A DNA stretch of 64,000 bases from Arthrobacter sp. PAMC25564 (GTDB taxonomy: Bacteria > Actinomycetota > Actinomycetes > Actinomycetales > Micrococcaceae). The first letter of the stretch is position 1; the number at the start of each line of letters is the position of its first letter. The DNA is taken from positions 3,162,001 through 3,226,000 of the forward strand of contig NZ_CP039290.1 of the NCBI RefSeq assembly GCF_004798705.1, in the 5' to 3' direction. Below, piece by piece: positions 16,434-39,969 of the stretch. A model generated the notes under the pieces. That model was not told the origin of the DNA. It ran no database searches and saw nothing but the letters and a program-made list of their open reading frames with translations. Made by a program: the position numbers and the translations under genes.

Positions 16434-16483
16434 GGGAGGAGACGTAGCACACGTCCTCCCCCAAATCTCTAAAGGTGGCATCG

Positions 16484-21763: not shown

Positions 21764-21772
21764 AGGATTGCC

Positions 21773-22909
21773 ATGATCGAGAACACCACGCATGAGTCAG
21801 TCGCCGCGCAGCACATCGCTGCGGAGCCGACGCCGGAGGAGGCTGCCCAGCTGGAGCAGCTGTACCAGGACTTTGAGTCCGAGAACCTGATCCCGCTGTG
21901 GACCGAGATCGCGGACCTGATGCCGATGGTCCCCACGCCCAAAGCCGTTCCGCACGTCTGGCGCTGGAACGATCTGTACCCGCTGGCCGCGCGCGCCGGT
22001 GACCTGGTGCCCGTGGGCCGCGGCGGGGAACGCCGTGCGATCGCCCTCGCGAATCCGGGCCTGGGCAAGACCCCGTACGCGACCCCCACGCTGTGGGCCG
22101 CGATCCAGTACCTCGGTGCCCGTGAGACCGCCCCGGAGCACCGCCACTCCCAGAACGCGTTCCGCTTCGTCGTCGAGGGCGAGGGCGTCTGGACCGTTGT
22201 GAACGGGGATCCGGTGCGGATGTCGCGCGGGGATTTCCTGCTGACCCCGGGCTGGAACTTCCACGGCCACCACAACGACACCGATGAGCCGATGGCGTGG
22301 ATCGACGGCCTGGACATCCCGTTCGTGCACTACGCCGACGCCGGGTTCTTCGAGTTCGGCACCGAGCGGGTCACCGACGAGGCGACCCCGGACATCTCCC
22401 GTTCCGAGCGGCTCTGGGCGCACCCGGGCCTGCGCCCGCTCTCGGGCCTGGATGACACCACGAGCTCCCCCATCGCGGCGTACCGCTGGGAATACACCGA
22501 CCGGGCCCTGGCCGAGCAGCTGCTGCTCGAGGACGAGGGCCACCCGGCCACGGTGTCCCAGGGCCACGCCGCGGTCCGCTACACCAACCCCACCACGGGC
22601 GGGGACGTGATGCCCACCATCCGGGCCGAGTTCCACCGCCTCCGCGCCGGGGCCGGCACCGAGACCGTCCGTGAGGTCGGTTCCAGTGTCTGGCAGGTCT
22701 TCGAAGGCACCGGCACGGTGGTCCTGAACGGGGAAACGAAGAACCTGGCCAAGGGTGACCTGTTCGTCGTCCCGTCCTGGGCCGCCTGGTCCCTTCAGGC
22801 GGACCTTCAGGCCGGGACGGAATTCGACCTGTTCCGCTTCAGCGACGCCCCCATTTTCGAACGCCTGAACTTCAACCGCACCTACATCGAAGGACGCAAC
22901 AACAAATGA
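21773..22909 (+). CDS. Gentisate 1,2-dioxygenase
   Basis: A 378-residue bicupin iron enzyme that opens gentisate to maleylpyruvate. Iron ligands are visible in the first cupin: H123 and H125 in PEHRHSQNAFRF, and H164 in GWNFHGHHND. The family strings MAWIDGLDIPFVHYAD and TVVLNGETKNLAKGDLFVVP support the call. AAAGGA precedes the ATG. It is followed by the two enzymes that complete the pathway, with the next start overlapping its stop (ATGA). Confidence 0.95.
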   Translation: MIENTTHESVAAQHIAAEPTPEEAAQLEQLYQDFESENLIPLWTEIADLMPMVPTPKAVPHVWRWNDLYPLAARAGDLVPVGRGGERRAIALANPGLGKTPYATPTLWAAIQYLGARETAPEHRHSQNAFRFVVEGEGVWTVVNGDPVRMSRGDFLLTPGWNFHGHHNDTDEPMAWIDGLDIPFVHYADAGFFEFGTERVTDEATPDISRSERLWAHPGLRPLSGLDDTTSSPIAAYRWEYTDRALAEQLLLEDEGHPATVSQGHAAVRYTNPTTGGDVMPTIRAEFHRLRAGAGTETVREVGSSVWQVFEGTGTVVLNGETKNLAKGDLFVVPSWAAWSLQADLQAGTEFDLFRFSDAPIFERLNFNRTYIEGRNNK

Positions 22910-23727
22910 GACTCCTCACCCTCCGCACCAAGAACGGAACCAAGGCAGTGCGCCAGGACGGGACCACCCTGACCGAGATCGACGGCTTCGCCAACGTCGG
23001 GGAACTGCTCAACACCGCCGGCTGGGAGGCCACCGCGAAGGCCGCGGCCGGTGCCACGCACCCGCTTGAGGGCGCGGACCTGGACGCCGTCGTCCCGTTC
23101 CCGGGCAAGATCATCTGCGTCGGGCACAACTACCGCAACCACATCAAGGAAATGGGCCGGGAAGTCCCGGAGTACCCCACCCTGTTCGCCAAGTACCAGG
23201 AATCCCTGATCGGCCCGAACGATGACCTGGCCCTGCCGCAGGAATCGTCCACGGTCGACTGGGAATCCGAACTCGCCGTCGTGATCGGCAAGAAGGGCCG
23301 CCGGATCGCCGAAGCCGACGCCGCGGACCACATCGCCGGCTACGCCGTCCTGAACGACGTGTCCATGCGCGACTACCAGTTCCGCACCATCCAGTGGCTG
23401 CAGGGCAAGACCTGGGAGAAGTCCACCCCGTTCGGCCCCGCCCTGGTCACCAAGGACGAATTCAGCGGCGGCCTGATGACCACCGCGGTCGACGGCGAGA
23501 TCCAGCAGCAGACCCCCACCAACGACGTCGTCTTCACCCCGGAATTCCTGGTCTCCTACATCTCCACCATCATCACCCTGAACCCCGGCGACGTCATCGC
23601 CACCGGCACCCCCGGAGGCGTGGGCCACGCCCAGGACCCCAAGCGCTACCTCCAGGAAGGCCAGCTCCTGGTCACCACCATCGAGGGACTGGGCCAGCTG
23701 AAGAACCGCGTCGTCAAGGAAGCCTGA
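22906..23727 (+). CDS. Fumarylacetoacetate hydrolase family protein (fumarylpyruvate hydrolase)
   Basis: A 273-residue FAH-fold hydrolase. Metal ligands are recognisable as E120 and E122 in DWESELAVVIGKKGR and D151 in LNDVSMRDYQ. GHNYRNHIKEMG and LNPGDVIATGTPGGVG are standard family motifs. In the gentisate route it cleaves fumarylpyruvate into fumarate and pyruvate. Its place between gentisate dioxygenase and maleylpyruvate isomerase makes this role near certain. Both ends overlap their neighbours by a few bases. Confidence 0.93.
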   Translation: MRLLTLRTKNGTKAVRQDGTTLTEIDGFANVGELLNTAGWEATAKAAAGATHPLEGADLDAVVPFPGKIICVGHNYRNHIKEMGREVPEYPTLFAKYQESLIGPNDDLALPQESSTVDWESELAVVIGKKGRRIAEADAADHIAGYAVLNDVSMRDYQFRTIQWLQGKTWEKSTPFGPALVTKDEFSGGLMTTAVDGEIQQQTPTNDVVFTPEFLVSYISTIITLNPGDVIATGTPGGVGHAQDPKRYLQEGQLLVTTIEGLGQLKNRVVKEA

Positions 23728-24491
23728 TGGTTGCACGCCACGACCAGACGACGGACCCCGAACTGCTCGCAGCCCTGCTGCAGGCACGCCGGGGCACCGC
23801 GTTCTTCGCCCGCAAGCTCAACGAACTCACCGACGCGGAGCTCGACGGCGATACGCTGCTGCCGGGCTGGACCCGCCGCCACATCACCGCGCACATCGGC
23901 TACAACGCCCGGGCCATCGCGCGCCTGGTCGAGTGGGCAGCCACCGGGGTGGAAACCCCGATGTACGCGTCCACGGACGTCCGGGACCACGAGATCAACT
24001 TCGGCGCCACCCTGTCCCCGATCGCGCTCCGGCACCTCTTCGACCACTCCGCCGTGCACCTGAACGTCGAATGGCGGGACCTGCCCGAGGACGCCTGGCA
24101 CCACAAAGTGCGCACCATCCAGGGCCGCGAAGTCCCCGCCAGCGAAACCGTCTGGATGCGCAGCCGGGAAGTCTGGATGCACGCCGTGGACCTGGACAAC
24201 GGCGCGAGGTTTGCCGACATCCCCGCCCCGGTCCTTGAACGCCTGCTCAAAGACATCACCGGCGCCTGGAAAACCCGCCGCACCGACACCGGGCTCGTGG
24301 TCAAGGTCACCGGCCAGGATCAGGAACTCACCTTCGGCGACACGACGGCCGAGTCCCCGACAGTGGTCTCCGGCCCGCTTCCCGCGGTCGTCGAATGGGC
24401 CGCCGGCCGGGGCAACGGCGGCGTAACCGCCGCCGGACCCGCCGCGGACGCGGCCCAGGGTGCGGTTCCGGCAGCACCGAAGTGGATCTGA
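23727..24491 (+). CDS. Mycothiol-dependent maleylpyruvate isomerase
   Basis: A 254-residue DinB-fold protein that isomerises maleylpyruvate to fumarylpyruvate with mycothiol as cofactor. The metal triad is H56, E148 and H152 (HITAHIG and SREVWMHAVDLD). The spacing matches that known for the Corynebacterium enzyme (52, 144, 148). The start overlaps the stop of the previous gene (TGATG), with AAGGAAG upstream. Mycothiol dependence fits an actinobacterium. It is the last gene of the salicylate operon; no clear terminator follows, and the next 215 bp hold an IS remnant. Confidence 0.93.
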   Translation: MVARHDQTTDPELLAALLQARRGTAFFARKLNELTDAELDGDTLLPGWTRRHITAHIGYNARAIARLVEWAATGVETPMYASTDVRDHEINFGATLSPIALRHLFDHSAVHLNVEWRDLPEDAWHHKVRTIQGREVPASETVWMRSREVWMHAVDLDNGARFADIPAPVLERLLKDITGAWKTRRTDTGLVVKVTGQDQELTFGDTTAESPTVVSGPLPAVVEWAAGRGNGGVTAAGPAADAAQGAVPAAPKWI

Positions 24492-25721: not shown

Positions 25722-26639
25722 CTACGCCGAAGCAGTGCCAGAGACAGCCGGCGGGACGGAGACGACGTCGTTCTGCAGCAGCCGGTAGACGACTGCCATG
25801 TCGTCCCCGCCGTAGCCGGCTTCCTTGCACCGTTCGTAGAGCGTGTGGACGCGTTCGGCGACAGTCCAGCTTTGCTCGGGCGCAACCGAGCGGATATCTC
25901 CCATGGCGAGCCTGAGGTCCTTGAGGAGGATGTCGACCTTCGCGCCGCCAGAGTAGTCATCACGCAGCGCCGGCGGGAAAAGCCAATTGAGCGCGAAGGT
26001 GCTGGTCGATGATGAATCAAGGATCTCTACGGCTTTGTCCGGGTCGACGCCGAGCCGGTCGGCCAACACCAGAGCTTCAGCCGTCGCCGCAGTGATCCCC
26101 GCCAAGAGGAGGTTGTGGATGACTTTCATAACCTGGCCGGCGCCATCGCCACCGACGTGGTACGTCAGGGTGCTGAAACAGCGGAGAAGCGGATCGGCGG
26201 ACTGCACGGTTTCCTCATCCCCACCGGCGAGGATCTTGAGCCTGCTGTCCTCGGCAGCCTCTCGGCCGCCGCCGATAACTGGCGCATCCAGATACCGGAA
26301 ACCCCGCTCCCGCGCGACGCTGGCATGGGCGGCGGACGATTCGTGCCCGATGGTGCCCATCTCGATGATCATCGACGCGGGGTCTGCAGACGCCACGACG
26401 GAATCGAACACGTTGTGCGCGATCTCGACGGTGGGCAGCATCATGAGAATGAAGTCAGCGCCCGGAACGGCGTCTTCGACAGACTCGAAAGTCTCGAGTC
26501 CCGCCTCGGCGGCCCTCAGCCGTGCTGCCGGAAAAGCATCTACCGCGCGCACGGCGTATCCGCCGTCGCTGATGTGGCGGGCAATGGGCTGGCCCATGGC
26601 CCCGAGGCCGATGAATGTCACGGTCTGTTGCTTGGTCAT
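25722..26639 (-). CDS. NAD(P)-dependent beta-hydroxyacid dehydrogenase (3-hydroxyisobutyrate dehydrogenase family)
   Basis: A 305-residue beta-hydroxyacid dehydrogenase. The cofactor motif GLGAMG is at 11-16 in TFIGLGAMGQPIARH. The substrate loop is DAPVIGG at 118-124, and the catalytic lysine K172 is in GAGQVMKVIHNLL. GGAG lies 8 bases before the ATG. It is the last gene of the long minus-strand operon, 20 bp behind ABC permease copy 1. It could oxidise a hydroxyacid or reduce a semialdehyde formed in the ketone pathway. The exact substrate cannot be read from sequence. Confidence 0.88.
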   Translation of the reverse strand: MTKQQTVTFIGLGAMGQPIARHISDGGYAVRAVDAFPAARLRAAEAGLETFESVEDAVPGADFILMMLPTVEIAHNVFDSVVASADPASMIIEMGTIGHESSAAHASVARERGFRYLDAPVIGGGREAAEDSRLKILAGGDEETVQSADPLLRCFSTLTYHVGGDGAGQVMKVIHNLLLAGITAATAEALVLADRLGVDPDKAVEILDSSSTSTFALNWLFPPALRDDYSGGAKVDILLKDLRLAMGDIRSVAPEQSWTVAERVHTLYERCKEAGYGGDDMAVVYRLLQNDVVSVPPAVSGTASA

Positions 26640-26655
26640 ATGAGAATCTCCATTC

Positions 26656-28326
26656 AGTTTTAGTTGTCTTGCCAGCGGAGGAGTTTGGTGCGGATGGTCC
26701 GCAGGCCCCAGGAGATGAGCATGGTGCCGGCCACGAGGATGATCAGGGTCGCGAAGTACTGGTCCATGCGGAAGGCCGCGGCGAAGTATTGCAGCCGGAC
26801 ACCCAGGCCGCTCTGGCCTGCGATCATTTCCCCGGCCACGGTGGCGAGCATGCCGAAGATGAAGCCCAGTTCCAGGCCTGTGAAGATCCCCGGCACGGCA
26901 CCGGGAAGGATGAACTTGGTGAAGGTCTGGTGCTTCTTCGCGCCCAGTACCCGGGCCAGCAGCAACCGTTCCTCCTCGGCGCTCTGCACGCCGGCGAGGG
27001 TGTTGGAAAACACCACGAAGAACGCCAGGCTGAAGGCCAAGGCGATCTTGGATTCCACGCCGATCCCGAACCAGAGCAGGAAAATCGGAGCCAGGGCAAC
27101 ACGCGGCAGCGCGTTGATCGCCGTGAGGTAAGGCTCGATCACCCGGAGCATAAACGGCGAGGCCGCCAGGGCCAGGGCCGCGAGCACGCCGGCGACGGAG
27201 GCCAGCGCCCACCCGGCGATCGCCCCGGTAAACGTCGAAACGGCGTGGACCGTGATCAGATCGGTGCCCAGCGACTCCCCCAAGGCTTTCACGATGGCCG
27301 AGGGCTGGCCCACATAGATCGGGTTCAGGGTGCCGTTGAGCACCAGCAGCTCCCAGGAGCCGAACATCAGCACGCCCAGGACGATCCACCCCAGCGGCAC
27401 GGCCCACACATAATGCCGGCGCGGAACCAATATCTTCCGGAGCGAGGCCCCGGAGGACTTGGGCCGTTGCCCGGACCGTCCAGCCTGGGGCCGGTCTGGT
27501 CGAGTGCTCAGCGGCGTCATCGTCTGGGGCCCGGGTGCGTTCTTGACGGTCATGATGCCAACTCCTCGCGGAACACGGACCAGATGTCCTGGTAGTACTT
27601 GTGGTAGGTGCTGCTGGACTGCAGCTCGAGTACGTTGCGCGGCCGGGGCAGATCGATCCGGAACTCGGCAATGATCTTGCCCGGACGGGCCGAGAAAACC
27701 AGGATCCGGTCGGCCATCACGATCGCCTCGGCGAGATCGTGGGTTACGAACAAGACCGAACTCTTCTGCTCTTCCCACCGCTGCAGGAACACGCCCTGCA
27801 GCCGCATCCGTGTTTCCGCGTCCAGCGCCGAGAACGGCTCATCCATCAGGATCGTGCCCGGATGGCTGACCAGCGTCCGCGCCAACGCCGTACGCTGGCG
27901 CATCCCGTGTGAGAGCTGGGAGGGATAGGACTTCAGGAATTTGCCGAGCCCGACCGAATCGAGAACCTCCGCAGCACGGTCCCGAGCCTCGCGCTTGGCG
28001 ATTCCGCGCAACTCCAACGGCAACGCCACGTTCGCCACCGCAGTACGCCACGGCAACAAACCATCCCGGGCCAGCAGATACCCCACATCATGGTTCCCCT
28101 CCCGGATCGGCTCCCCGCCCAGGGACACCTCACCCTCCGTAGGACGCACCAGGCCGGCAACCATATTCAGCACCGTCGTCTTGCCACAGCCCGAAGGACC
28201 CACCAGACACACGAACTCACCCGGCGCAACCCTCAGGCTCGTCGTATCCAACGCCAACACCGAACCACCATCCGGCGACTGGAACGACTGCGACACCCGA
28301 TCCACCACGATCTCATCACCCGTAAG
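26656..28326. repeat. 1671-bp direct repeat, copy 1
   Basis: Bases 26656-28326 match 33175-34845 in the same orientation, offset 6519. I found one difference, C at 26668 against T at 33187. The repeat covers a complete permease gene and all but the first 14 codons of the ATPase gene. Flanking bases diverge at once on both sides (C/A on the left, G/C on the right). Confidence 0.92.
26660..27553 (-). CDS. ABC transporter permease, SsuC/TauC type (copy 1)
   Basis: A 297-residue binding-protein-dependent permease with about six membrane helices, the first being VPLGWIVLGVLMFGSWELLV. The EAA-like loop reads VQSAEEERLLLARVLGAKKH, followed by FTKFILPGAVPGIFTGLELG, typical of the nitrate/sulfonate/taurine permease family. 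It differs from copy 2 only at residue 296 (D here, N there). Its start overlaps the ATPase stop (ATGA). With the ATPase and binding protein upstream it should form an importer for an organic, perhaps aromatic, solute. Confidence 0.9.
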   Translation of the reverse strand: MTVKNAPGPQTMTPLSTRPDRPQAGRSGQRPKSSGASLRKILVPRRHYVWAVPLGWIVLGVLMFGSWELLVLNGTLNPIYVGQPSAIVKALGESLGTDLITVHAVSTFTGAIAGWALASVAGVLAALALAASPFMLRVIEPYLTAINALPRVALAPIFLLWFGIGVESKIALAFSLAFFVVFSNTLAGVQSAEEERLLLARVLGAKKHQTFTKFILPGAVPGIFTGLELGFIFGMLATVAGEMIAGQSGLGVRLQYFAAAFRMDQYFATLIILVAGTMLISWGLRTIRTKLLRWQDN

Positions 28327-28368
28327 GCTGGCGTTCTGGGCGGTGCTGGCTGTGAATGGCATGGTCAT
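27550..28368 (-). CDS. ABC transporter ATP-binding protein, SsuB/TauB type (copy 1)
   Basis: A 272-residue ATPase. Walker A is GPSGCGKT (57-64), Walker B ILMDEP (173-178), with the switch histidine in VTHDLAEAI. The signature loop is LSHGM, with histidine where most have glycine. Residues 1-14 (MTMPFTASTAQNAS) are unlike those of copy 2; from LTGDEIVVD onward the two are identical. The start overlaps the stop of the binding-protein gene (ATGA). It drives the importer formed with the adjacent permease. Confidence 0.92.
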   Translation of the reverse strand: MTMPFTASTAQNASLTGDEIVVDRVSQSFQSPDGGSVLALDTTSLRVAPGEFVCLVGPSGCGKTTVLNMVAGLVRPTEGEVSLGGEPIREGNHDVGYLLARDGLLPWRTAVANVALPLELRGIAKREARDRAAEVLDSVGLGKFLKSYPSQLSHGMRQRTALARTLVSHPGTILMDEPFSALDAETRMRLQGVFLQRWEEQKSSVLFVTHDLAEAIVMADRILVFSARPGKIIAEFRIDLPRPRNVLELQSSSTYHKYYQDIWSVFREELAS

Positions 28369-29450
28369 TTGACGGTTTCGGACCAGACCATGTCTTTGGC
28401 CTGCTCCGTGATCTTGGTGCCGCGGGTCTTGACCGTGAAGTCGACATAAGCCTGGAGCGCGGTCAGATCGACTTTCGTATCGACGTTCTGGGCGTAAATG
28501 TCGACGGAGGCCTTGTACACCTCGTCGGCGTTGGCCAGATCCGCGGGCACTGACACCTGGTTCCGCAGAATCTTGTAGAGCTCCTCGCGGTTCTTCGGAT
28601 CCCTGATCCATACGCTGGCCTCGTCCAGGGCGGCCTGGAATCGCTTGCCGGTTTCCGGGTTCTTCTGAAGGAAGCTGCCCTGTGCCGCCCACAGCAGCGA
28701 GGTTTTGCCGACCCCCTGGAGCGTCTTGGGGACCGGGTTCTCATTTGTCGCTGGTTTGCGCGAGTCTGAGATCATGATGCCGAATCCCTTGGCGACAGCG
28801 ACGTCCTGGGCCGTGCCGTAGAAGTAGACGGCGTCGACTTTCTTGTTTTCGAGCCCTGCCAGCATTGTCGATGTCTGTCCGAGCGCGACGAAGGTCTTGG
28901 TCCCGGGGTCTATTCCCGCGTCCTGAAAGTTGGTGTGGGAGTGGAATTCTGCGCTGCCCCCGAGTGCCACGACTCCGACCGTCTTGATGTTGTTCAGCGT
29001 TTCCTGATACGTGGCGCCAACTTTGTCCTTGAGGACCACCAGGCTGTAAATGGGCCGGGTGAGGATGTTTGTCACCACTTTCAGGTCGATACCTTGAGCG
29101 CGCGCGGGCGGGACGTTGTCCGGTCCGGTGTTGATGAAGTCGACCTGACCGCCGACCATGGCTGTGATCGACGCCGGCGTGGACGCGATACTCACCGGAG
29201 TTCCGGCGATGCAGTTTTTCGCGAAGAACCCCTTCTCCTTAGCCACGGCTGCCTGGATGTTGATGATGTTGCCGTCGTACCACTGGTACTTCGCCGGGTA
29301 GGCCTTCTCACAGCCAGGGTCTACGTCGCTGGCCGGAGCGCTGGCCGAGGTGGCGGCGCCGCCGCAGGCGGTTACGGCCAGTACTACGGATGCGGCGGAA
29401 GCGGTCATGAGGGCAATACGGCGGCTATGGTGCTTCTTTGCACGGAACAT
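28365..29450 (-). CDS. ABC substrate-binding lipoprotein (NMT1/SsuA-like)
   Basis: A 361-residue secreted lipoprotein. A basic N-terminus and hydrophobic stretch lead to the lipobox AVTAC with the lipidated cysteine C29. The mature part has the NMT1/THI5/SsuA fold, with AAVAKEKGFF, TAMVGGQVDFINTG and LVVLKDKVGATYQ. It is the only binding protein for the two ATPase-permease pairs in this operon. It lies between the SDR gene and ATPase copy 1. Given the BVMO and hydrolase in the same operon, the ligand may be an aromatic ketone or ester breakdown product, but this is inference. Confidence 0.9.
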   Translation of the reverse strand: MFRAKKHHSRRIALMTASAASVVLAVTACGGAATSASAPASDVDPGCEKAYPAKYQWYDGNIINIQAAVAKEKGFFAKNCIAGTPVSIASTPASITAMVGGQVDFINTGPDNVPPARAQGIDLKVVTNILTRPIYSLVVLKDKVGATYQETLNNIKTVGVVALGGSAEFHSHTNFQDAGIDPGTKTFVALGQTSTMLAGLENKKVDAVYFYGTAQDVAVAKGFGIMISDSRKPATNENPVPKTLQGVGKTSLLWAAQGSFLQKNPETGKRFQAALDEASVWIRDPKNREELYKILRNQVSVPADLANADEVYKASVDIYAQNVDTKVDLTALQAYVDFTVKTRGTKITEQAKDMVWSETVK

Positions 29451-29492
29451 GATGGTGCCTTTCGGAAATGGTTAGATAACTAGGACGGGCGA

Positions 29493-30308
29493 CTAGCTCG
29501 CGCTGCGGAGTATTCCGCCGTCGACGCAGATGACCTGGCCGGAAACGAAGTCGGACAGTGGACTAGCAAGGAACTCGACGACGTTGGTGCAATCCTCGGG
29601 CCGTCCCAGCCGGCGCAGAGCACTCATCTGGGTCCATTGCCTGAGGCGTTCGGGGTCAGCTGCGCCGAGTCGCTCCTTGAACTGGCCAGTGGCGATGAAA
29701 CCGGGAGCAATGGCGTTGGCATTGACACCGTGGGGCCCAAGTTCCTGGGCGAGACAGCGTGTGTAGTGTGCCACCGCTCCCTTGGCCACTGCGTAGTCGG
29801 CGCCGTGGCCCTCGCCCAGTGCCATCACACCGGTGAACGAGGAGATTGTGATGATTTTCCCGGCCTGCTGCTTCTTCATGTAGGGGGCCACTGCGGCTGC
29901 TGTGTAAACGGTGGAGTAGAAGTTCCGGGCGAACGTTGCCTTCATCGACTCGTCCACAATTTGTGTGGGTTGAGAGGCTGAAAAATCGCCGCCTCCTCCG
30001 GCGTTGCAGACGGCGACATCAATGCGCCCCCACTTCGCGTAGACGTCGTCGGCGAATGCCTTCGTCGCCTCTTCGTCAGTCGCGTCGACCTCCTTCATGA
30101 AGACCTCCGTACCGTACTGGGAGAGTGTCTTTTCCAGGCTGCCGTCCACCAACTGGCTCATTTCGGCCTCGTACTGCGACGCAGAGTCCAGGTTGATGTC
30201 ACTGATGGCGATGTTGGCGCCCATCTGGGCCAGGCGCTTGGCGTAGTCGAGGCCCAGCCCACGGGCTGCTCCGGTGACGACGGCAACTTTTCCCTCGAGA
30301 GGTTTCAA
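29493..30308 (-). CDS. Short-chain dehydrogenase/reductase
   Basis: A 271-residue classical SDR. The cofactor motif TGAARGLG is at 12-19, NAGG at 102-105, catalytic serine near S156/S157 in ISSFTG, and YxxxK is Y172-AVA-K176. D37 after the second strand favours NAD(H). The start codon overlaps the stop of the alpha/beta hydrolase (ATGA). In a ketone-degrading operon it could oxidise the secondary alcohol to the ketone that the BVMO uses. A 1-phenylethanol-type alcohol is possible but unproven. Confidence 0.9.
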   Translation of the reverse strand: MKPLEGKVAVVTGAARGLGLDYAKRLAQMGANIAISDINLDSASQYEAEMSQLVDGSLEKTLSQYGTEVFMKEVDATDEEATKAFADDVYAKWGRIDVAVCNAGGGGDFSASQPTQIVDESMKATFARNFYSTVYTAAAVAPYMKKQQAGKIITISSFTGVMALGEGHGADYAVAKGAVAHYTRCLAQELGPHGVNANAIAPGFIATGQFKERLGAADPERLRQWTQMSALRRLGRPEDCTNVVEFLASPLSDFVSGQVICVDGGILRSAS

Positions 30309-31168
30309 TGTCTTTCCAATCCTGATGTGACGTGATGAGTGGAGGTGGCGGTTCTGGCTGCAGTTTCTGCCAGGAACCGCTGTAAGACCGCGATGGAGGA
30401 TTCGGGATCCTCAACCGTCGGCCAGTGGGCGACGTTCTTCAGAACGACTGTCTCGGTGTGGGCCGGCCGCAGTGCTGCCTCGCATGCAGCGACTTCCTGG
30501 GTCGTAGAAATGGCGTCCTCCGCTCCGCGGACCAGGATCACCGAACAGTCAGGGGCTTCCGGGGGATTGGCTTCGCCGGCTTCGCCGATCGCCACGCAGC
30601 ACTCGGCGTAGCGATCAGCGTCCTGGCCCATGAGGAATTCGCGCACGAGTGTCACGGCCAGTGGACGGGTATTGAGCGTGTGCTGACTTAGGGCAGCAAG
30701 GCCAAAGTCGTGGGCGACCCTCACCATGCCGTGGGTACGTGCTGTGGCTGCCCTGGCTGCGAACGCTGGCCTCTGCGAGACGTCGGGACCTGCGATCGGG
30801 GCGAAAAGCACCATGCCCTTGACCCGCGGCTCCTGGGCTGCCACATGTCGGGCCACCAGCGTTCCCAGTGAGTGCCCGACGAGGATGACACTCTCGAATT
30901 CCCCAAGCTCCGCGATGGCGTTTTCGACGTCGATAATCCAGTCCCCGAACCCCTGCGGCCCAGTCCCGTTGCTTCGGCCAAGGCCGGTGAGGTCGATCGA
31001 GACTGTGGGATATTCGGACTGGATGGCGCTCCGCAGGGGAAAATAGACGTTGGAATTCCCGCCCAGCCCGTGGATGAAGACCACGCCAGTGGAAGGGCAA
31101 CCACCCGGTTTTGGCGTGCTGGTCTCGATGAAGTTCCCGCTGAGCACCGGGTTAGACATGGGCTGCAT
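30305..31168 (-). CDS. Alpha/beta hydrolase, candidate esterase for the BVMO product
   Basis: A 287-residue alpha/beta hydrolase. The oxyanion motif is FIHGLGG (31-37) and the nucleophile S100 is in GHSLG. The acid is probably the aspartate in VRGAEDAIS and the base the histidine in KNVAHWPTVEDPE. The gene starts inside the last codons of the BVMO gene, at ATG 31168 or 31159, so translation is coupled. A BVMO followed at once by a hydrolase is the expected pair: the monooxygenase makes an ester, the hydrolase splits it. No good ribosome site is seen for either start. Confidence 0.88.
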   Translation of the reverse strand: MQPMSNPVLSGNFIETSTPKPGGCPSTGVVFIHGLGGNSNVYFPLRSAIQSEYPTVSIDLTGLGRSNGTGPQGFGDWIIDVENAIAELGEFESVILVGHSLGTLVARHVAAQEPRVKGMVLFAPIAGPDVSQRPAFAARAATARTHGMVRVAHDFGLAALSQHTLNTRPLAVTLVREFLMGQDADRYAECCVAIGEAGEANPPEAPDCSVILVRGAEDAISTTQEVAACEAALRPAHTETVVLKNVAHWPTVEDPESSIAVLQRFLAETAARTATSTHHVTSGLERH

Positions 31169-33122
31169 TTGTCTCTGCCGTCTCACTGATCGGGACGGAC
31201 GGCAGTCCGATCAGCGACTTCTGGACTTCGTAGGTCTCGAGGCTGGCCTCCGTCGTCATCTGCCAGTAGTCTGCAGACGTCCACGGCATGTTCGCTGTTA
31301 CGCGTCCCTTCGAGTTCCGGTACCACGTGGACCCGGTCGGCACGGCCCAGATCATTTTCTCCAGCTCCGCATCCATCCGGGCGTTGTAGTCCTCAAATAC
31401 GTCGCGCTTCACCTCTGCGCTGCCGATACCGCGTTCGATCATGTCGCGAATAATGGTCGCGATATAGCTACTCTGGGCTTCGGCCTGGAAGAAGATGCTG
31501 CCGCCGACTCCCACGTTTGTATTGGGCCCGTACAGAACGAAGAGGTTCGGGAAATCCGGGACGGTAATACCCAGGTAGGCACGGGGGTCCTCCTCGCCCC
31601 AGACGTCGCGGATTGTGACGCCGCCCTTGCCGGTGAAATCGACGGAGGAGAGCATGCGTGCCGCCTTGAACCCGGTAGCGAAGACAACGATGTCGGCGTC
31701 GTGTTCCCGCCCGTCCCCGTCAATCACGCCTGTCTCGGTGAATTCCAGTGCCCGGAAGTTCACGAGCTCGACGTTCTCGCGCTGGAACATCCGGACCCAG
31801 CCGTTGTCCCGCAGCATCCGCTTCATCAGCGGAGGGAAACTGGGAACCAGGGACTCCAAGAGGTCCTGGCGTTCACCCAGCTCATCTGACATGTAGCCCA
31901 GGAGGCGTTCACGAAGAGCCTGGTTGGCTTGACTGATCGTGCCGTCGGGGTTGTTCCACGTGGGGTCCACCACGGCGGCCGGGCGCATCACGTCGTTCAT
32001 CGAGAGCATGGTCCGCGCACGGAACCAGCGTTCGTAGGCGGGAACATTGCCCAGGACCCATTTCTCGTCTTCCGGCACGTCTTCGAGGTAGCCCGGCACG
32101 CCGACTACCCACTGCGGGCTCCGCTGCAGAACGGTGAGTGTGTCTACGATCGGGGCAATGGCGGGGCCGATCTGGTTGGCGCTGGCACCGTTGCCTACGA
32201 GTACCACCTTTTTGCCGGTCAGGTCTGCGGAGTGGTCCCATTCTGCCGAATGGAACGCTTTGCCGAGGAAGTTTTCCCGGCCCGGGAGGTCCGGAACGGC
32301 CGGGACGCTGAGCTGGCCGATTCCGCTGACCAGAACGTTCGTGCGGATGGTCTGTCGGCTGGTCCCGGTGACGGTATCGAGGACCCACTCCGCGGTGGAC
32401 TCGTCGAAGGAAGCGGAGTCCACCCGGACACCGAAGCTGATGTGCTCCTCCAGTCCGAACATGCGGACGCATTCCTGGATGTAGGCGAGGATTTCGGGCT
32501 GCTTGGCGTAGTACCGGTTCCAGTCCTGCCGGCGGGCAAAGGAAAAGGAAAAATAGTGGCTTGCGATGTCAACGCCACAACCAGGGTAGGTATTGACCGC
32601 CCAGGTCCCGCCGGATTCGTTGTTGGAATCGTAGATGTGGAAGGGGATGCCCATGCGCTTGAGGTGGATCGCCGTCGCGATGCCGGACATGCCGGCTCCG
32701 ATGATGGCCACCGAGAAGCCAGCGGCCGACTCCGGTCGTACCGAACTCCAGTCGACGAAAGCGTCGCCCAGCCGACCCATCTCCTTCAGGATGACCCGTT
32801 TCTCGTGGTCTGCCATTTCCCGTCCGGCAACCGTGTTGGCGAGGGAATCAAAAACTTCTCCAGTAGCGGGGGCATCAGGGTACGCGCCACCGGTTTCGGT
32901 GAGGACACCCGCCATACGCTCGCGGAGACGGTTCAGGACGTGGTCCGGAAACTTCGCGTCCGCCGAAGTGGGTCCGGTGATGTAGCCCCGGCATTCATGG
33001 AGCAGGCCGAGGTCACCAGTCATCTCGACGAGTGCCAGAAGGAGTGCAGTTGGGTCGGTGTGTGAGAGCTTGCGCAGCAGCTCTTCGTGAGACAGGGCTT
33101 TGAAGTTTGCTTGGATGGTCAT
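31152..33122 (-). CDS. Baeyer-Villiger monooxygenase, 4-hydroxyacetophenone monooxygenase-like
   Basis: A 656-residue BVMO. The fingerprint FxGxxxHxxxW is FLGKAFHSAEW at 285-295. The FAD motif GAGMSG is at 142-147, and a second dinucleotide motif GNGASA at 310-315. About 135 residues precede the FAD domain, with ALSHEELLRKL and ALLLALVEMTGDLGLL. This N-terminal extension is the mark of the 4-hydroxyacetophenone monooxygenase branch (about 640 residues). Those enzymes turn aryl ketones into aryl esters using FAD and NADPH. AAGGA before the ATG at 33122 sets the start; the frame stays open upstream through the permease but only by chance. It leads into the hydrolase gene. Confidence 0.92.
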   Translation of the reverse strand: MTIQANFKALSHEELLRKLSHTDPTALLLALVEMTGDLGLLHECRGYITGPTSADAKFPDHVLNRLRERMAGVLTETGGAYPDAPATGEVFDSLANTVAGREMADHEKRVILKEMGRLGDAFVDWSSVRPESAAGFSVAIIGAGMSGIATAIHLKRMGIPFHIYDSNNESGGTWAVNTYPGCGVDIASHYFSFSFARRQDWNRYYAKQPEILAYIQECVRMFGLEEHISFGVRVDSASFDESTAEWVLDTVTGTSRQTIRTNVLVSGIGQLSVPAVPDLPGRENFLGKAFHSAEWDHSADLTGKKVVLVGNGASANQIGPAIAPIVDTLTVLQRSPQWVVGVPGYLEDVPEDEKWVLGNVPAYERWFRARTMLSMNDVMRPAAVVDPTWNNPDGTISQANQALRERLLGYMSDELGERQDLLESLVPSFPPLMKRMLRDNGWVRMFQRENVELVNFRALEFTETGVIDGDGREHDADIVVFATGFKAARMLSSVDFTGKGGVTIRDVWGEEDPRAYLGITVPDFPNLFVLYGPNTNVGVGGSIFFQAEAQSSYIATIIRDMIERGIGSAEVKRDVFEDYNARMDAELEKMIWAVPTGSTWYRNSKGRVTANMPWTSADYWQMTTEASLETYEVQKSLIGLPSVPISETAETNAAHV

Positions 33123-33174
33123 AGCCGTTCCTTCTCCGGGCACAGCGGTGCCCGGGTAGAGGGGATGTGGTGGA

Positions 33175-34845
33175 AGTTTTAGTTGTTTTGCCAGCGGAGG
33201 AGTTTGGTGCGGATGGTCCGCAGGCCCCAGGAGATGAGCATGGTGCCGGCCACGAGGATGATCAGGGTCGCGAAGTACTGGTCCATGCGGAAGGCCGCGG
33301 CGAAGTATTGCAGCCGGACACCCAGGCCGCTCTGGCCTGCGATCATTTCCCCGGCCACGGTGGCGAGCATGCCGAAGATGAAGCCCAGTTCCAGGCCTGT
33401 GAAGATCCCCGGCACGGCACCGGGAAGGATGAACTTGGTGAAGGTCTGGTGCTTCTTCGCGCCCAGTACCCGGGCCAGCAGCAACCGTTCCTCCTCGGCG
33501 CTCTGCACGCCGGCGAGGGTGTTGGAAAACACCACGAAGAACGCCAGGCTGAAGGCCAAGGCGATCTTGGATTCCACGCCGATCCCGAACCAGAGCAGGA
33601 AAATCGGAGCCAGGGCAACACGCGGCAGCGCGTTGATCGCCGTGAGGTAAGGCTCGATCACCCGGAGCATAAACGGCGAGGCCGCCAGGGCCAGGGCCGC
33701 GAGCACGCCGGCGACGGAGGCCAGCGCCCACCCGGCGATCGCCCCGGTAAACGTCGAAACGGCGTGGACCGTGATCAGATCGGTGCCCAGCGACTCCCCC
33801 AAGGCTTTCACGATGGCCGAGGGCTGGCCCACATAGATCGGGTTCAGGGTGCCGTTGAGCACCAGCAGCTCCCAGGAGCCGAACATCAGCACGCCCAGGA
33901 CGATCCACCCCAGCGGCACGGCCCACACATAATGCCGGCGCGGAACCAATATCTTCCGGAGCGAGGCCCCGGAGGACTTGGGCCGTTGCCCGGACCGTCC
34001 AGCCTGGGGCCGGTCTGGTCGAGTGCTCAGCGGCGTCATCGTCTGGGGCCCGGGTGCGTTCTTGACGGTCATGATGCCAACTCCTCGCGGAACACGGACC
34101 AGATGTCCTGGTAGTACTTGTGGTAGGTGCTGCTGGACTGCAGCTCGAGTACGTTGCGCGGCCGGGGCAGATCGATCCGGAACTCGGCAATGATCTTGCC
34201 CGGACGGGCCGAGAAAACCAGGATCCGGTCGGCCATCACGATCGCCTCGGCGAGATCGTGGGTTACGAACAAGACCGAACTCTTCTGCTCTTCCCACCGC
34301 TGCAGGAACACGCCCTGCAGCCGCATCCGTGTTTCCGCGTCCAGCGCCGAGAACGGCTCATCCATCAGGATCGTGCCCGGATGGCTGACCAGCGTCCGCG
34401 CCAACGCCGTACGCTGGCGCATCCCGTGTGAGAGCTGGGAGGGATAGGACTTCAGGAATTTGCCGAGCCCGACCGAATCGAGAACCTCCGCAGCACGGTC
34501 CCGAGCCTCGCGCTTGGCGATTCCGCGCAACTCCAACGGCAACGCCACGTTCGCCACCGCAGTACGCCACGGCAACAAACCATCCCGGGCCAGCAGATAC
34601 CCCACATCATGGTTCCCCTCCCGGATCGGCTCCCCGCCCAGGGACACCTCACCCTCCGTAGGACGCACCAGGCCGGCAACCATATTCAGCACCGTCGTCT
34701 TGCCACAGCCCGAAGGACCCACCAGACACACGAACTCACCCGGCGCAACCCTCAGGCTCGTCGTATCCAACGCCAACACCGAACCACCATCCGGCGACTG
34801 GAACGACTGCGACACCCGATCCACCACGATCTCATCACCCGTAAG
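33175..34845. repeat. 1671-bp direct repeat, copy 2
   Basis: This is the second copy of 26656-28326, same orientation, one base different (T at 33187). The 4848 bp between the copies hold the binding protein, SDR, hydrolase and BVMO genes. Recombination between the copies would delete or amplify exactly that 6519-bp unit. Confidence 0.92.
33179..34072 (-). CDS. ABC transporter permease, SsuC/TauC type (copy 2)
   Basis: A 297-residue permease identical to copy 1 except residue 296, which is N instead of D because of the single base change at 33187. It is followed after 56 bp by the BVMO gene, where AAGGA restarts translation. Its own start overlaps the stop of ATPase copy 2 (ATGA). With no binding protein directly beside it, it most likely shares the lipoprotein encoded at 28365-29450. 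Confidence 0.9.
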   Translation of the reverse strand: MTVKNAPGPQTMTPLSTRPDRPQAGRSGQRPKSSGASLRKILVPRRHYVWAVPLGWIVLGVLMFGSWELLVLNGTLNPIYVGQPSAIVKALGESLGTDLITVHAVSTFTGAIAGWALASVAGVLAALALAASPFMLRVIEPYLTAINALPRVALAPIFLLWFGIGVESKIALAFSLAFFVVFSNTLAGVQSAEEERLLLARVLGAKKHQTFTKFILPGAVPGIFTGLELGFIFGMLATVAGEMIAGQSGLGVRLQYFAAAFRMDQYFATLIILVAGTMLISWGLRTIRTKLLRWQNN

Positions 34846-34890
34846 CCGGCCGGTTACGGACGGTGCGGGTCGCTCAACTTGTAAAGACAC
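34069..34890 (-). CDS. ABC transporter ATP-binding protein, SsuB/TauB type (copy 2)
   Basis: A 273-residue ATPase, identical to copy 1 from LTGDEIVVD to the end. The first 15 residues differ (MSLQVERPAPSVTGR). I chose the GTG complementary to 34888-34890 because AAAGGAG lies 6 bases upstream; a longer frame to 35481 crosses the divergent IclR gene and is rejected. It is the first gene of the operon running left to 25722. The two N-termini show that the repeat was joined to two different 5' ends. Confidence 0.9.
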   Translation of the reverse strand: MSLQVERPAPSVTGRLTGDEIVVDRVSQSFQSPDGGSVLALDTTSLRVAPGEFVCLVGPSGCGKTTVLNMVAGLVRPTEGEVSLGGEPIREGNHDVGYLLARDGLLPWRTAVANVALPLELRGIAKREARDRAAEVLDSVGLGKFLKSYPSQLSHGMRQRTALARTLVSHPGTILMDEPFSALDAETRMRLQGVFLQRWEEQKSSVLFVTHDLAEAIVMADRILVFSARPGKIIAEFRIDLPRPRNVLELQSSSTYHKYYQDIWSVFREELAS

Positions 34891-34969: not shown

Positions 34970-34975
34970 TAGAAT
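34970..34975 (+). promoter_or_regulatory. -10 box of a leaderless iclR mRNA
   Basis: TAGAAT ends 6 nt before the ATG at 34982 and no ribosome site lies between, so transcription should begin at or next to the start codon. Leaderless mRNAs are common in actinobacteria. Confidence 0.55.
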
Positions 34976-34981
34976 TCCTCT

Positions 34982-35719
34982 ATGTCGAACAATTCATCGT
35001 CTGTGGGTAATGCACTGGTACTTCTTCGCCTCTTACAGGAGCGTGATGTCCTCCGGGTCAGTGACGCCGCCGGCGAACTGGGGGTGGCCCGTTCGACTGC
35101 GCATCGCCTGCTGGCGAGCCTGAAGGAGCATGGATTCGCTGTCCAGGACGGAGACAGGTCATACTCCCTTGACCCCCGCCAACGGCATGGGCACCGGGCG
35201 CTGACACCGGAATCACTTGTCCCGATTGCGCGTCCACACCTTGAGTGGCTAGTGGGCAAGACCAATGAAAGTGTGCACCTTATAGTGCCGGAAGGGCAGA
35301 TGGTTCGGGCCATTGACACCGTTGAGGGGACGCAAATGCTCCGCGTGGGAAGCCGTGTTGGCGTCCTGGTTCCAGCCCATACGGCTGCAGCGGGCCTGCT
35401 CTTCCTCAGCGGGATGCCCGTAGAAAGACTCGCCGCGATGTACTCCGATGGTCCTCCGCGCGATTCCGGCGCGAAGACCATCGAAGAATTTCATGCATCG
35501 CTTCAGCTCCACCGGCCCTACGCGGTGTCCCTTGGTCGAGCCGAGCGCGGAGTCAATGCACTGGCGATGCTGGTGACAGACCAGAACAACAATCGGGTGG
35601 CCGCGGTATCTCTGGTCGCTCCGGCGTTTCGCATGCCACCCCAGGGGATGCCGGAGGTAGCTGCGCTGGTCAAGGAATGCGTCCAAAGGATCCATGCGAA
35701 CATCCTCGACCGCGCTTAG
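34982..35719 (+). CDS. IclR-family transcriptional regulator
   Basis: A 245-residue regulator. The N-terminal winged helix reads GNALVLLRLLQERDVLRVSD, then AAGELGVARSTAHRLLASLK. The C-terminal effector domain includes RVGVLVPAHTAAAGLLFLSG. IclR proteins govern many aromatic-compound operons, as repressor or activator. This gene diverges from the ABC-BVMO operon across a 91-bp gap, so it is the prime candidate to control it. Its stop lies 23 bp from the end of the convergent old-yellow-enzyme gene. Confidence 0.88.
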   Translation: MSNNSSSVGNALVLLRLLQERDVLRVSDAAGELGVARSTAHRLLASLKEHGFAVQDGDRSYSLDPRQRHGHRALTPESLVPIARPHLEWLVGKTNESVHLIVPEGQMVRAIDTVEGTQMLRVGSRVGVLVPAHTAAAGLLFLSGMPVERLAAMYSDGPPRDSGAKTIEEFHASLQLHRPYAVSLGRAERGVNALAMLVTDQNNNRVAAVSLVAPAFRMPPQGMPEVAALVKECVQRIHANILDRA

Positions 35720-35742: not shown

Positions 35743-36873
35743 TCAATCAACAGATCGCTGGAAGACGCCGCGGCGGGTCTTGATCGCATAACCGTACTGG
35801 GTCGGCCATTCGCGCTCGTATCCAAGTGTCTCTGCGGCATGCCGGAGCCAATATGGGTTGCGGAGCATTTCACGCCCCAGAAAGACGGCGTCCGCCCTAC
35901 CCTCATCGAGGATGTCCTGGGCCTGCCGTGGCTCATTGATGAGCCCCACGGCAGCTGTAGGGATCCGCGCACCAGCCCTGATCGTCTCGGCAAACGGCAC
36001 CTGGTATCCCGGCCCTGCCGTGATGCGTGCATCGGGGACCAGCCCGCCGGACGACACATCGAGGAGGTCGACGCCATGCGCCCTGAGGATGACCGCCAGG
36101 CGCACGCTGTCAGCTACGGACCATCCTTCCCGCGGATCGCTTGGGTTTTCGGACAACCAATCCGTGGCGGAAAGACGGAAAAAGAGCGGGAATTCCGCAG
36201 GCCAAACCGCCCTGACGGCGTCCACTACCTGCAGTGCGAAGCGGGTTCGGTTCTCGAACGACCCGCCGTATTCATCGATACGAGCGTTCGTATGCGGTGA
36301 GAGGAATGAGCCGATGAGGTAGCCATGTGCTCCATGGATCTCCGCAACCTGGAAACCGGCATTGCGGGCGCGGGTGGCGGCCGCCGAAAAGTCCTCCACC
36401 AAGGCGAAGATCTCTTCCCGGCTCAATTCCGCCGGCGCGCGCCAGCGCCCATACGGTATCGCGCTGGGGCCCTTGACCGCCCACCCCCCGTTTTCCGGGG
36501 GCAACTGCGCCCCGGTCAACCAGGGCCGGTCTGATGAAGCCTTGCGCCCAGCATGGGCAAGCTGTATGGCCGGAACGGAGCCAAGTTCGCGGATCACTCG
36601 GGCTATCCGGCCGAACACCTTTTCCTGCTCAGCGTTCCACAACCCGAGATCCCACGGCGTAATGCGACCATCGGGCCGAACAGCCGTGGCCTCCACCATG
36701 ATCAGACCGGCTCCCCCCGCGGCTCTGCTGGCGAGATGGGCAAGATGCCAATCCGTCGGGCACCCTGTTTCCGGCCCGCGGCTCTCCGCCGAGTACATGC
36801 ACATAGGCGACATCCACACGCGATTGGGTATCTCCAAAGTCCTGAGGAGATATGGCTCAAAAAGAGAACTCAC
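35743..36873 (-). CDS. NADH:flavin oxidoreductase, old yellow enzyme (YqjM-like)
   Basis: A 376-residue FMN enzyme. It starts at a GTG (complement of 36871-36873) with GGAG at 7 bases, giving SSLFEPYLLRTLEIPNRVWM. The YqjM-type cysteine is C25 in SPMCMYSA. LAHAGRKAS holds the substrate-binding histidine and EIHGAHGYLIGSFLSPHTN is the family motif. It should reduce activated C=C bonds with NAD(P)H. It converges on the IclR gene and is not part of the BVMO operon, although a role in the same metabolism is possible. Confidence 0.9.
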   Translation of the reverse strand: MSSLFEPYLLRTLEIPNRVWMSPMCMYSAESRGPETGCPTDWHLAHLASRAAGGAGLIMVEATAVRPDGRITPWDLGLWNAEQEKVFGRIARVIRELGSVPAIQLAHAGRKASSDRPWLTGAQLPPENGGWAVKGPSAIPYGRWRAPAELSREEIFALVEDFSAAATRARNAGFQVAEIHGAHGYLIGSFLSPHTNARIDEYGGSFENRTRFALQVVDAVRAVWPAEFPLFFRLSATDWLSENPSDPREGWSVADSVRLAVILRAHGVDLLDVSSGGLVPDARITAGPGYQVPFAETIRAGARIPTAAVGLINEPRQAQDILDEGRADAVFLGREMLRNPYWLRHAAETLGYEREWPTQYGYAIKTRRGVFQRSVD

Positions 36874-37224
36874 TGATCGACTCCTAGTGTCTCGTAAGGT
36901 CCCCGGATGGCACAGAAAAGTGGTTGTGCCGGAACGCGGCGCGCTAGGGATTGCGCGAGGCTCATGGGGATTTCTGAGGACGAGGTCCCCCGTCGAACCA
37001 GCGTGCCATTCAGGTCCCCAGCCGTCCAATACTTAATGAGGGGACGACTTATGCACTCTTGAGAAGAATCTGGGGGAGACCAATGGTTGTGACAGAGCGA
37101 GCCAGGAAGGCCTCGGGTGATGGATGACCGTCCAAAATATGGAGCTCACAGGCGCACCTGCCCTGGCTCGATACTCTGGCTCGCGCCTGGAGGGCTTGCG
37201 TTGCGGTTTTGTCGGCCTCCGCAT
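36874..37224. other. Intergenic region without recognisable gene
   Basis: About 350 bp upstream of the old-yellow-enzyme gene, ending at the transposase remnant. I see no frame with a recognisable protein on either strand and no clear promoter. It probably holds the enzyme's promoter and eroded insertion-sequence DNA. Confidence 0.4.
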
Positions 37225-37540: not shown

Positions 37541-37893
37541 TGACCGTTGCAGCATGAAACCGGGAGTCTGTGACTCTGAATCTACATATCAGCCGCTCAG
37601 GGCCGGCTTCGCTCGTCCCGCCGTGGAACGGGAAAATTCCTCGGTCGTCCTGTTGTGCGTGCCGGCCCGTCTTGTTCCGGATGCGAAGCGGGCTGATACT
37701 GCTGCTGTGTTCCGGATACGACCCTGGTCTCCCTGTGGTGCCGTGAGCCTGTATGTCAGCCTGGTGGTGGAGAGCCTGTTTCCGCGGGGACCGTGGAATG
37801 TTGCCCATGAGCACGAGCGTCAGATTACTGTTTTTTGCTCTCCTTTCCGGTACACGCTCCCTACTCAACGGCGGCGAAACGGATGGTGAAGCG
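37541..37893 (+). other. Non-coding left end of the IS110-type element, candidate bridge-RNA region
   Basis: About 350 bp with no convincing gene precede the transposase start, while only about 60 bp separate its stop from interrupted host sequence. IS110-group elements have this layout, and their long left non-coding end encodes the bridge (seek) RNA that pairs with target and donor DNA. I cannot fold the region here. The exact left boundary of the element is not visible because the family often lacks terminal inverted repeats. Confidence 0.35.
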
Positions 37894-39135
37894 ATGGATG
37901 TTCTGTATCAACGGTGCGCGGGACTGGATGTGTCCAAGCGGGACGCGAAGGCCTGCGTGCGGATCACGGGCGACCGCGGGAAAACGAGCCAGGAGATCAC
38001 GACATGGGGGGCGATGACGAACGAGGTTAACCGGTTGGCCGACTACCTGCTGGCCCAGGATGTGGGCCTGGTGGTGATTGAGGCGACCGGGGATTACTGG
38101 CGCCAGTTCTACTTTCTGCTCGAAGACAAGGGGCTTAACGTTCAGCTGGTTCATGCCAAAGAGGCAAGGAACGTCCCGGGCCGGAAGACGGACGTTTCCG
38201 ACGCGGCCTGGCTCGCCCAGCTCGGCGCGCACGGCCTACTGCACGCCTGCCTGGTCCCGCCGGAGAACATCCGCCGGCTGCGTGATCTGACCCGGGCCCG
38301 GACCGCGATCACCGATGAACGTTCCCGCGAAGTCCAGCGGCTGGAGAAGATGCTGGAGGATTCCGGGATCAAGCTCTCCTCGATCGCAACAGACATCACC
38401 GGTGTCTCCGGCAGGGCGATGCTCCAGGCCCTGATCGAGGGCCAGAACGACCCTGCCGTGCTGGCCGATCTGGCGAAGAGGGGCATGCGCCGGAAGATCC
38501 CCGCACTGACGGAGGCCCTCACCGGCCGGTTCAACGAACACCACGCGTTCATGGCCCGGCTGTTCCTGGACCGGGTCGATGCCCACACCAAGGACCTCCA
38601 ACGCCTCGATGCCCGCATCGAGGAACAGATGAAGCCTTTTAGCGCCGCCCGGGAACTGCTGGCGACCGTCCCGGGCATCAGCACCCGCACCGCCGAGGTC
38701 ATCATCGCCGAAACCGGGGCCGACATGACCGTCTTTCCCACCGCCGGGCACTTCGCCTCCTGGGGCGGGACGGCGCCCGGGGCCAACGAATCCGCAGGAC
38801 GGGTCAAGTCAACCAAAACAAGACCCGGAAACCGCTACCTCAAACGGGCGCTGGGCACCGCGGCCCTGACGGTCTCCCGCTCCCAAACCACGTATCTCGG
38901 GGCGAAGTACCGGCGCATCAAGTCCCGCCGCGGGCTGATGAAAGCCCTCGTCGCGGTGGAGCATTCCATGCTCATCTCGATCTGGCACATGCTCACCACC
39001 GGAGAGTGCTACGTCGACCCGGGCCCCGACTATTACACCCGCCGCCAGCCGCTGCGCAGCAAAGAAAGAGCCGTTCAACAGCTCGAAAACCTCGGCTATC
39101 AGGTGATCCTCGAGCCTCTGCAACGGACCGGTTAG
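37894..39135 (+). mobile_element. IS110-family DEDD transposase, intact
   Basis: A 413-residue transposase. The N-terminal RuvC-like domain has the acidic residues in AGLDVSKRDAKA, VIEATGDYWR and GRKTDVSDAAWLAQLGAHGLL (D-E-D-D). The C-terminal Transposase_20 region reads LLATVPGISTRTAEVIIAET, then FASWGGTAPGANES and GNRYLKRALG with the essential serine in NES. The frame is complete, so the element may still be active. The ATG at 37894 is preferred to an upstream in-frame ATG because the family begins MDVLYQRCAGLDV-like. It has interrupted the integrase gene to its right. Confidence 0.9.
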
Positions 39136-39189
39136 GGCCATACCCGCACCGTCAACAACCTGCCCCGGGCGCACCCATCCCACGTCACC

Positions 39190-39596
39190 ACAATTTTCGC
39201 GTCAGTGGACCGGCCCTTGGTCTGCATGGCCTTGATCCAAAACGTCAGGTGCCGGTAATCAAGCTTGTCCACGGGAGGGTGCTCGATGACACCGGCGATG
39301 TGCAGCTTCAGCAGGGTCTGATATGAGTGCACTGTGCCAACTGAAGGCCGAACCAGAAGGTCGATGTGCTCTTGGATCACGGCCGCGACGGTGGGTGCTT
39401 TGGTCTGGTTCGCGATCATCGCATGCTGGGCAATCTCAAAGGATTGGTTGTTGGCGTCAAGGAGGCGCTTCAGCGTCTGGGCCTCAGCCGACGTCGCTTG
39501 GGTAATCCCCTCTTGCTTTCGCGTCTCGGGGTTCCGCCAGCGGACCGTATAGGACGTGGATCCATCTGATTTTTTTCGTTCCCAAATGCTGGCCAT
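39190..39596 (-). pseudogene. Tyrosine-type integrase, N-terminal fragment cut by the IS110 element
   Basis: From the ATG complementary to 39594-39596 the minus strand encodes MASIWERKKSDGSTSYTVRW and continues through RKQEGITQATSAEAQTLKRL to WIKAMQTKGRSTDAK. This is the Arm-type DNA-binding and SAM-like core-binding part of an actinobacterial phage/ICE integrase. The match ends near 39195, where IS-derived sequence takes over, and the catalytic domain is missing. The gene starts 89 bp from the 3' end of tRNA-Leu, the usual position for an integrase of an element inserted in that tRNA. Confidence 0.8.
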
Positions 39597-39684
39597 ACCG
39601 AAGATTCCAGGCTTCGTGTGCACACATTTCGAGTTTTTGTGCACACGCTGAGGCCTAAAACCGCGTTGACCTGCGGAAACACTG

Positions 39685-39766
39685 TGCCCGAGGTGGGACT
39701 CGAACCCACACACCTTTCGATACCGCATTTTGAGTGCGGCGCGTCTGCCAATTCCGCCACTCGGGC
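39685..39766 (-). tRNA. tRNA-Leu, anticodon CAA
   Basis: An 82-nt tRNA on the minus strand. The acceptor stem pairs GCCCGAG with CTCGGGC, followed by discriminator A. The anticodon stem CCGCA/TGCGG holds the loop CTCAAAA, so the anticodon is CAA (reads UUG). The T arm contains GGTTCGAGTCCC. A long variable arm is present, as expected for tRNA-Leu. CCA is not encoded. Its 3' end faces the integrase fragment, and it marks the border between accessory and core DNA. Confidence 0.95.
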
Positions 39767-39969
39767 GCGGAGTACACCGGTAACATTCGCGGCGCCACGG
39801 TGTTGTGAGCAACGCGATCGCTTCCAGTGCGCGGAATTACTCTACATGCAGATAGGCTGAATTCCAGAATCGCGCCAGTGACGCCGCATCGAACCAGACC
39901 GGCCAAAGTACACCAGCGGACAAAACCTATGATGGTCTAGTCCCGCCGTACCCTTACAAGGAGTTCCAC

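Follow-up and report, generated by a model that had tools for sequence, protein, structure and literature searches.

An operon with two nearly identical ATPase-permease gene pairs lies in the window, the 64,000-nucleotide stretch of the Arthrobacter sp. PAMC25564 genome that was analysed. Its genes follow one another in the order ATPase A, permease A, Baeyer-Villiger-type monooxygenase (BVMO), alpha/beta hydrolase, short-chain dehydrogenase/reductase (SDR), substrate-binding protein, ATPase B, permease B and a 3-hydroxyisobutyrate dehydrogenase-like protein (HIBADH). The gene of an IclR-family regulator stands in front of the operon and is read divergently. The coordinates are collected in Table 1.

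Table 1. Features of the operon and of the repeat within it; positions count from the first letter of the window.
Feature	Coordinates	Strand	Length	Description
HIBADH-like protein	25722..26642	-		Pfam
Repeat copy B	26656..28326	-	1671 bp	ATPase codon 15 on, entire permease, 4 nt 3' of stop
Permease B	26660..27553	-	297 aa	D296
ATPase B	27550..28368	-	272 aa	ATG start at 28368; private 14-codon N-terminus
Substrate-binding protein	28365..29450	-		NMT1/SsuA-like
SDR	29493..30308	-		Pfam
Alpha/beta hydrolase	30305..31165	-		Pfam
BVMO	31152..33122	-	656 aa	Baeyer-Villiger-type flavin monooxygenase; Pfam FMO-like; ~135-aa N-terminal extension
BVMO leader	33123..33174	-	52 nt	8-bp hairpin, z -2.9, 2/200 shuffles as good
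Repeat copy A	33175..34845	-	1671 bp	ATPase codon 16 on, entire permease, 4 nt 3' of stop
Permease A	33179..34072	-	297 aa	N296
ATPase A	34069..34890	-	273 aa	GTG start at 34890; private 15-codon N-terminus; ABC importer ATPase (NCBIfam models)
17-nt block	34973..34989		17 nt	IclR start codon and 9 nt before; identical in window, L132 and L133
IclR-family regulator	34982..35719	+		Pfam

The operon brings together a permease with a BPD_transp_1 domain (scanned in the copy-B protein), an ABC ATPase and an NMT1/SsuA-like binding protein, which is the composition of a NitT/TauT-type importer. The NCBIfam models shown for these three proteins all scored below their cut-offs. As in the SsuABC, TauABC and NitT-type ABC importers, binding protein, ATPase and permease come in order and the families match, but here the operon has a second, identical ATPase-permease pair. 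A second binding protein of this kind was not found in the genome at E ≤ 1e-20. Among the enzymes, the 656-residue protein fits a type I Baeyer-Villiger monooxygenase, as judged from its FMO-like family and its similarity to solved enzymes. The best solved relatives were phenylacetone (E 5.8e-60), cyclohexanone and steroid monooxygenases, matched from about residue 135 on. The extension that precedes this point presumably resembles that of 4-hydroxyacetophenone monooxygenase. Taken together, the operon probably encodes a NitT/TauT-type ABC importer, and its enzymes point to a ketone-like or aromatic substrate.

The original prediction described a near-perfect direct repeat of 1671 bp with one differing base, and base-by-base comparison agreed with it. 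The copies have the same orientation and are identical at 1670 of 1671 positions; the sole mismatch is C at 26668 in copy B against T at 33187 in copy A. The further claims about the proteins were also borne out. The permeases differ at residue 296 alone, with N in copy A and D in copy B, and the difference between the ATPases is limited to the 15 (A) and 14 (B) codons outside the repeat. The fusions at the repeat ends are in frame, with starts and stops in place in all four genes. Both private N-termini end on a codon boundary. In each copy the ATPase stop and the permease start overlap, and the permease stop lies 4 nt before the repeat end, while the start of ATPase B overlaps the stop of the binding protein (ATGA). 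Beyond the repeat ends the similarity stops abruptly, with ungapped matches at only 20/100 and 27/100 of the adjoining bases. The near-identity is confined to the homologous part and the flanks are unrelated, as is expected of gene pairs under gene conversion.

The copies are spaced 6519 bp apart, with a unique spacer of 4848 bp between them. In a scan of the window for exact repeats of at least 20 bp, the runner-up direct repeat measured 23 bp. Within the genome, assembled as one contig of 4,170,970 bases, there are two near-identical sites; a third close copy was absent, and the four other matches in the genome were short (35-229 bp, 67-89% identity).

Relatives with a single pair indicated which of the two positions is older. 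When 395 genomes of the family were searched with the BVMO, 40 had matches, and the neighbours of the gene were checked at the best loci (L117-L131), 14 of which belong to other genomes. The SDR and hydrolase genes adjoin the BVMO gene at 2 of these 14, and the regions of both were analysed: L132 (genome G341; its ATPase, P0123, is labelled Arthrobacter sp. I2-34) and L133 (genome G338; its permease, P0005, is labelled Citricoccus sp.). L132 reads, behind a divergent IclR gene, BVMO, hydrolase, SDR, binding protein, ATPase, permease, HIBADH and an OYE gene. L133 has the same order from BVMO on, up to the contig end inside OYE; its other contig end lies a few bases into the IclR region, where the IclR start was recognised by alignment alone. 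From BVMO to HIBADH the order is thus that of the window in both loci, but each has one ATPase-permease pair only, located at the position of copy B. The OYE gene lies 3' of HIBADH in L132 and L133, whereas in the window it lies beyond IclR. This OYE-family gene of the window (35743-36903) shares 43-45% identity with its counterparts in the two loci.

No pair was found at position A in L132 or L133, where the stretch before BVMO is contiguous. Both genomes are drafts, of 70 and 430 contigs, and a search of them at E ≤ 1e-25 gave one close permease each (66%), all others being at most 35% identical. The two loci are fairly distant from the window operon, with 55-58% identity in BVMO and 66-71% in the permease. 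In L132 the ATPase is 69% identical to that of the window and IclR 37%, and the BVMO is split over two frames. Position B is shared and old, because the pair of the relatives also stands behind the binding protein, with the same ATGA overlap in L132 as in copy B of the window. Position A, seen only in the window genome, is probably a gain. L132 and L133 are close to each other and therefore count as one lineage, in which position A may instead have been lost.

The 17-nt block common to the window, L132 and L133 partly codes for IclR, so it marks a homologous operon head and not an operator. The leader of copy A resembles that of L132 (0/200 shuffles as good) and shows weak similarity to that of L133 (12/200). 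By sequence comparison, the BVMO leader of the window is not significantly similar to its counterparts in L132 and L133.

The N-termini of ATPases A and B are unrelated, with 1/14 residues identical. Such different N-termini in front of an identical body point to two distinct genes. The best ATPase match, P0121, has 95% identity and comes from another dataset, in which it sits on a 1273-bp contig. Its N-terminus shares 13/15 residues with copy A, and none of 20,000 shuffles was as good. In total, 13 sites separate P0121 from copy A; of these, 11 lie beyond codon 15, a stretch in which A and B have no differences. With about 11 differences expected, the Poisson chance of finding none between A and B is 1.7e-5, a figure which assumes equal rates and a separation of A from B that preceded the P0121 split. 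The A-type N-terminus recurs in a protein with 11 further differences, and so probably did not originate together with the present copy. However, P0121 may occupy position B in its own genome, and if so its N-terminus would be uninformative about an old copy A.

The ATPase search gave 1500 matches, of which 120 were listed and 9 fetched. Among these nine, the A-type N-terminus was present in one (P0121) and the B-type in none; because the database is clustered at 90% identity, a B-type relative may be hidden within the same cluster. P0122, from a Glutamicibacter genome, was considered as a second carrier of the A-type N-terminus and rejected (3/15 residues, 26% of shuffles as good). Another relative, P0125, a 200-residue ATPase with 95% identity over 70% of the query, has no comparable N-terminus. 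About ten foreign residues replace its first ~80, so it is without the Walker A region, and it may represent a further rearranged copy or an artefact of assembly. Among the permeases, P0001 (91%) and P0002 (90%) carry N296 like copy A. The contig of P0002 measures 1673, near-equal to the 1671 of the repeat; this was not used as evidence.

We favour, with reasonable confidence, the reading that two older ATPase-permease pairs were later homogenised by gene conversion over that of one fresh duplication. P0121 has the A-type N-terminus and yet diverges where A and B are the same, which argues for homogenisation. The extent of the repeat supports it as well, because the repeat spans what two paralogous pairs would share, namely the ATPase body, the permease and 4 bases. 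This assessment is independent of whether position A is a gain. The second pair would be of some age and would have had a ribosome site and an N-terminus of its own. Both pairs would later have been homogenised, by RecA-type gene conversion or by unequal crossing-over. The rewritten stretch would run from ATPase codon 15/16 to 4 nt past the permease stop, ending where the homology between the two sites ends. Because P0001 and P0002 agree with A at residue 296, D296 of copy B is most simply explained as a mutation that B acquired later. The likely effect would be two equal doses of ATPase and permease, served by one binding protein. Searches of genus, family and order found no second two-copy genome with DNA, so we argue for at most one homogenisation event. 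Of the earlier wording, "very recent duplication or continuing gene conversion", gene conversion is thereby favoured in the form of homogenised older pairs, while the notion that it continues is not.

Gene conversion is known to drive the concerted evolution of duplicated genes in bacteria, as in tuf genes and rRNA operons. These are likewise near-identical inside, have unrelated flanks, and lose identity where the homology ends. The present copies differ from them in being metabolic genes and in sharing one operon, where they form direct repeats at a distance of 6.5 kb that enclose parts of a pathway. The process would be ordinary recombination, of which the operon offers an unusually clean example: a duplicated metabolic gene pair at a promoter-proximal and a distal site, identical in the body and distinct at the N-termini. 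If homogenisation is confirmed, the locus would make it possible to measure, in an actinobacterium, how gene conversion compares with deletion when direct repeats lie close together, since cells that lose the unit are expected to grow poorly on the substrate.

The alternative of one recent duplication appears rather unlikely, although it has evidence on its side. A copy of pair B might have been placed behind the operon head, its frame preserved by chance or by selection, or the stretch from BVMO to the permease might have been duplicated in tandem and its front part then deleted. One mismatch in 1671 bp and the empty position A in both L132 and L133 are what such an event would leave, and the tandem form would account for the BVMO leader directly after permease A. 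However, the join would have had to be in frame with a ready start codon and ribosome site, and the recurrence of the A N-terminus in P0121, with its 11 further differences, fits poorly with a fresh copy. The leader of copy A also lacks significant similarity to the BVMO leader (19/200 shuffles as good), and its derivation from that leader was rejected.

The geometry of the repeat makes loop-out or amplification of the 6519-bp unit mechanically possible, as the original prediction had stated, but the assembly shows one state only. Exchange between sister chromosomes would add one 6519-bp unit with the frames intact. One could suppose that unequal exchange, by amplifying or restoring the unit in this way, is what keeps the pairs identical, in which case the private N-termini would mark the fixed limits of an operon that can expand and is selected for dosage; we hold this to be improbable. 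Still less probable is a copy-number device, in which the repeats would serve reversible amplification of the unit to tune ketone catabolism. The direct orientation, the near-identity over 1.67 kb and the survival of the frames in unequal exchange, everything being shared from codon 15/16 on, would suit such a device. However, this geometry is common to any direct repeat of such size, and no sign of control was seen in the assembly. Exchange between the copies would permanently remove the BVMO, hydrolase, SDR and the sole binding protein of this kind; a loop-out of this kind is one-way, so the proposed "simple dose switch" is not a switch. An assembly artefact behind the repeat is hardly credible, given one contig with four distinct junctions and one base difference, and since another dataset also has an ATPase of this family with the A-type N-terminus; the concern raised by a single assembly is weakened, not removed.

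Close relatives of the operon are scarce. In a DNA search of 198 genomes of the genus, own genome included, 180 had matches, but those outside the own genome were weak and partial, the best being 69% over 296 bp. The ATPase at E ≤ 1e-90 matched the own genome alone among 206 genomes of the genus, own included, and likewise when 59 relatives were searched at E ≤ 1e-80. Nor was there a match at E ≤ 1e-70 among 29 and 18 genomes from two other genera of the family, in a search without a positive control. An order-wide BVMO search of 396 genomes at E ≤ 1e-145 again returned the own genome alone. In plasmids there was one 74-bp DNA match, and the best ATPase reached 53%; viral contigs gave no match. 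A GTDB scan with the BVMO had a best match of 41% (best 80 of 590). Among the matches listed, the nearest named sequences came from Glutamicibacter, Arthrobacter and Citricoccus.

A horizontal arrival of the operon is likely. The region 2-4 kb beyond IclR contains a tRNA-Leu gene, an integrase-like frame and an IS110 element. An IS110-family transposase (Pfam) abuts an open frame beside tRNA-Leu (37753-39135 / 39132-39812; tRNA-Leu at 39684-39766). The start of this frame looks, in our view, like that of a tyrosine integrase, and Pfam and NCBIfam gave no match to it; it is perhaps an integrase cut by the IS110 element. When the 3' end of tRNA-Leu was used to look for an island end, a second site was absent from the window. 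The matches to this 3' end elsewhere in the genome, one of 27 bp about 586 kb away and one of 74%, were not taken as island ends.

Elsewhere in the window, frames at 16475-24491 presumably belong to a salicylyl-CoA/gentisate pathway, with a flavin hydroxylase, CoA ligases, gentisate dioxygenase and fumarylpyruvate hydrolase, and the 543-residue frame at 754-2385, near the left window end, is taken to be a second BVMO-like protein. A 23-bp exact repeat occurs at 8813 and 11963, inside two frames which we assume to be paralogous alcohol dehydrogenases.
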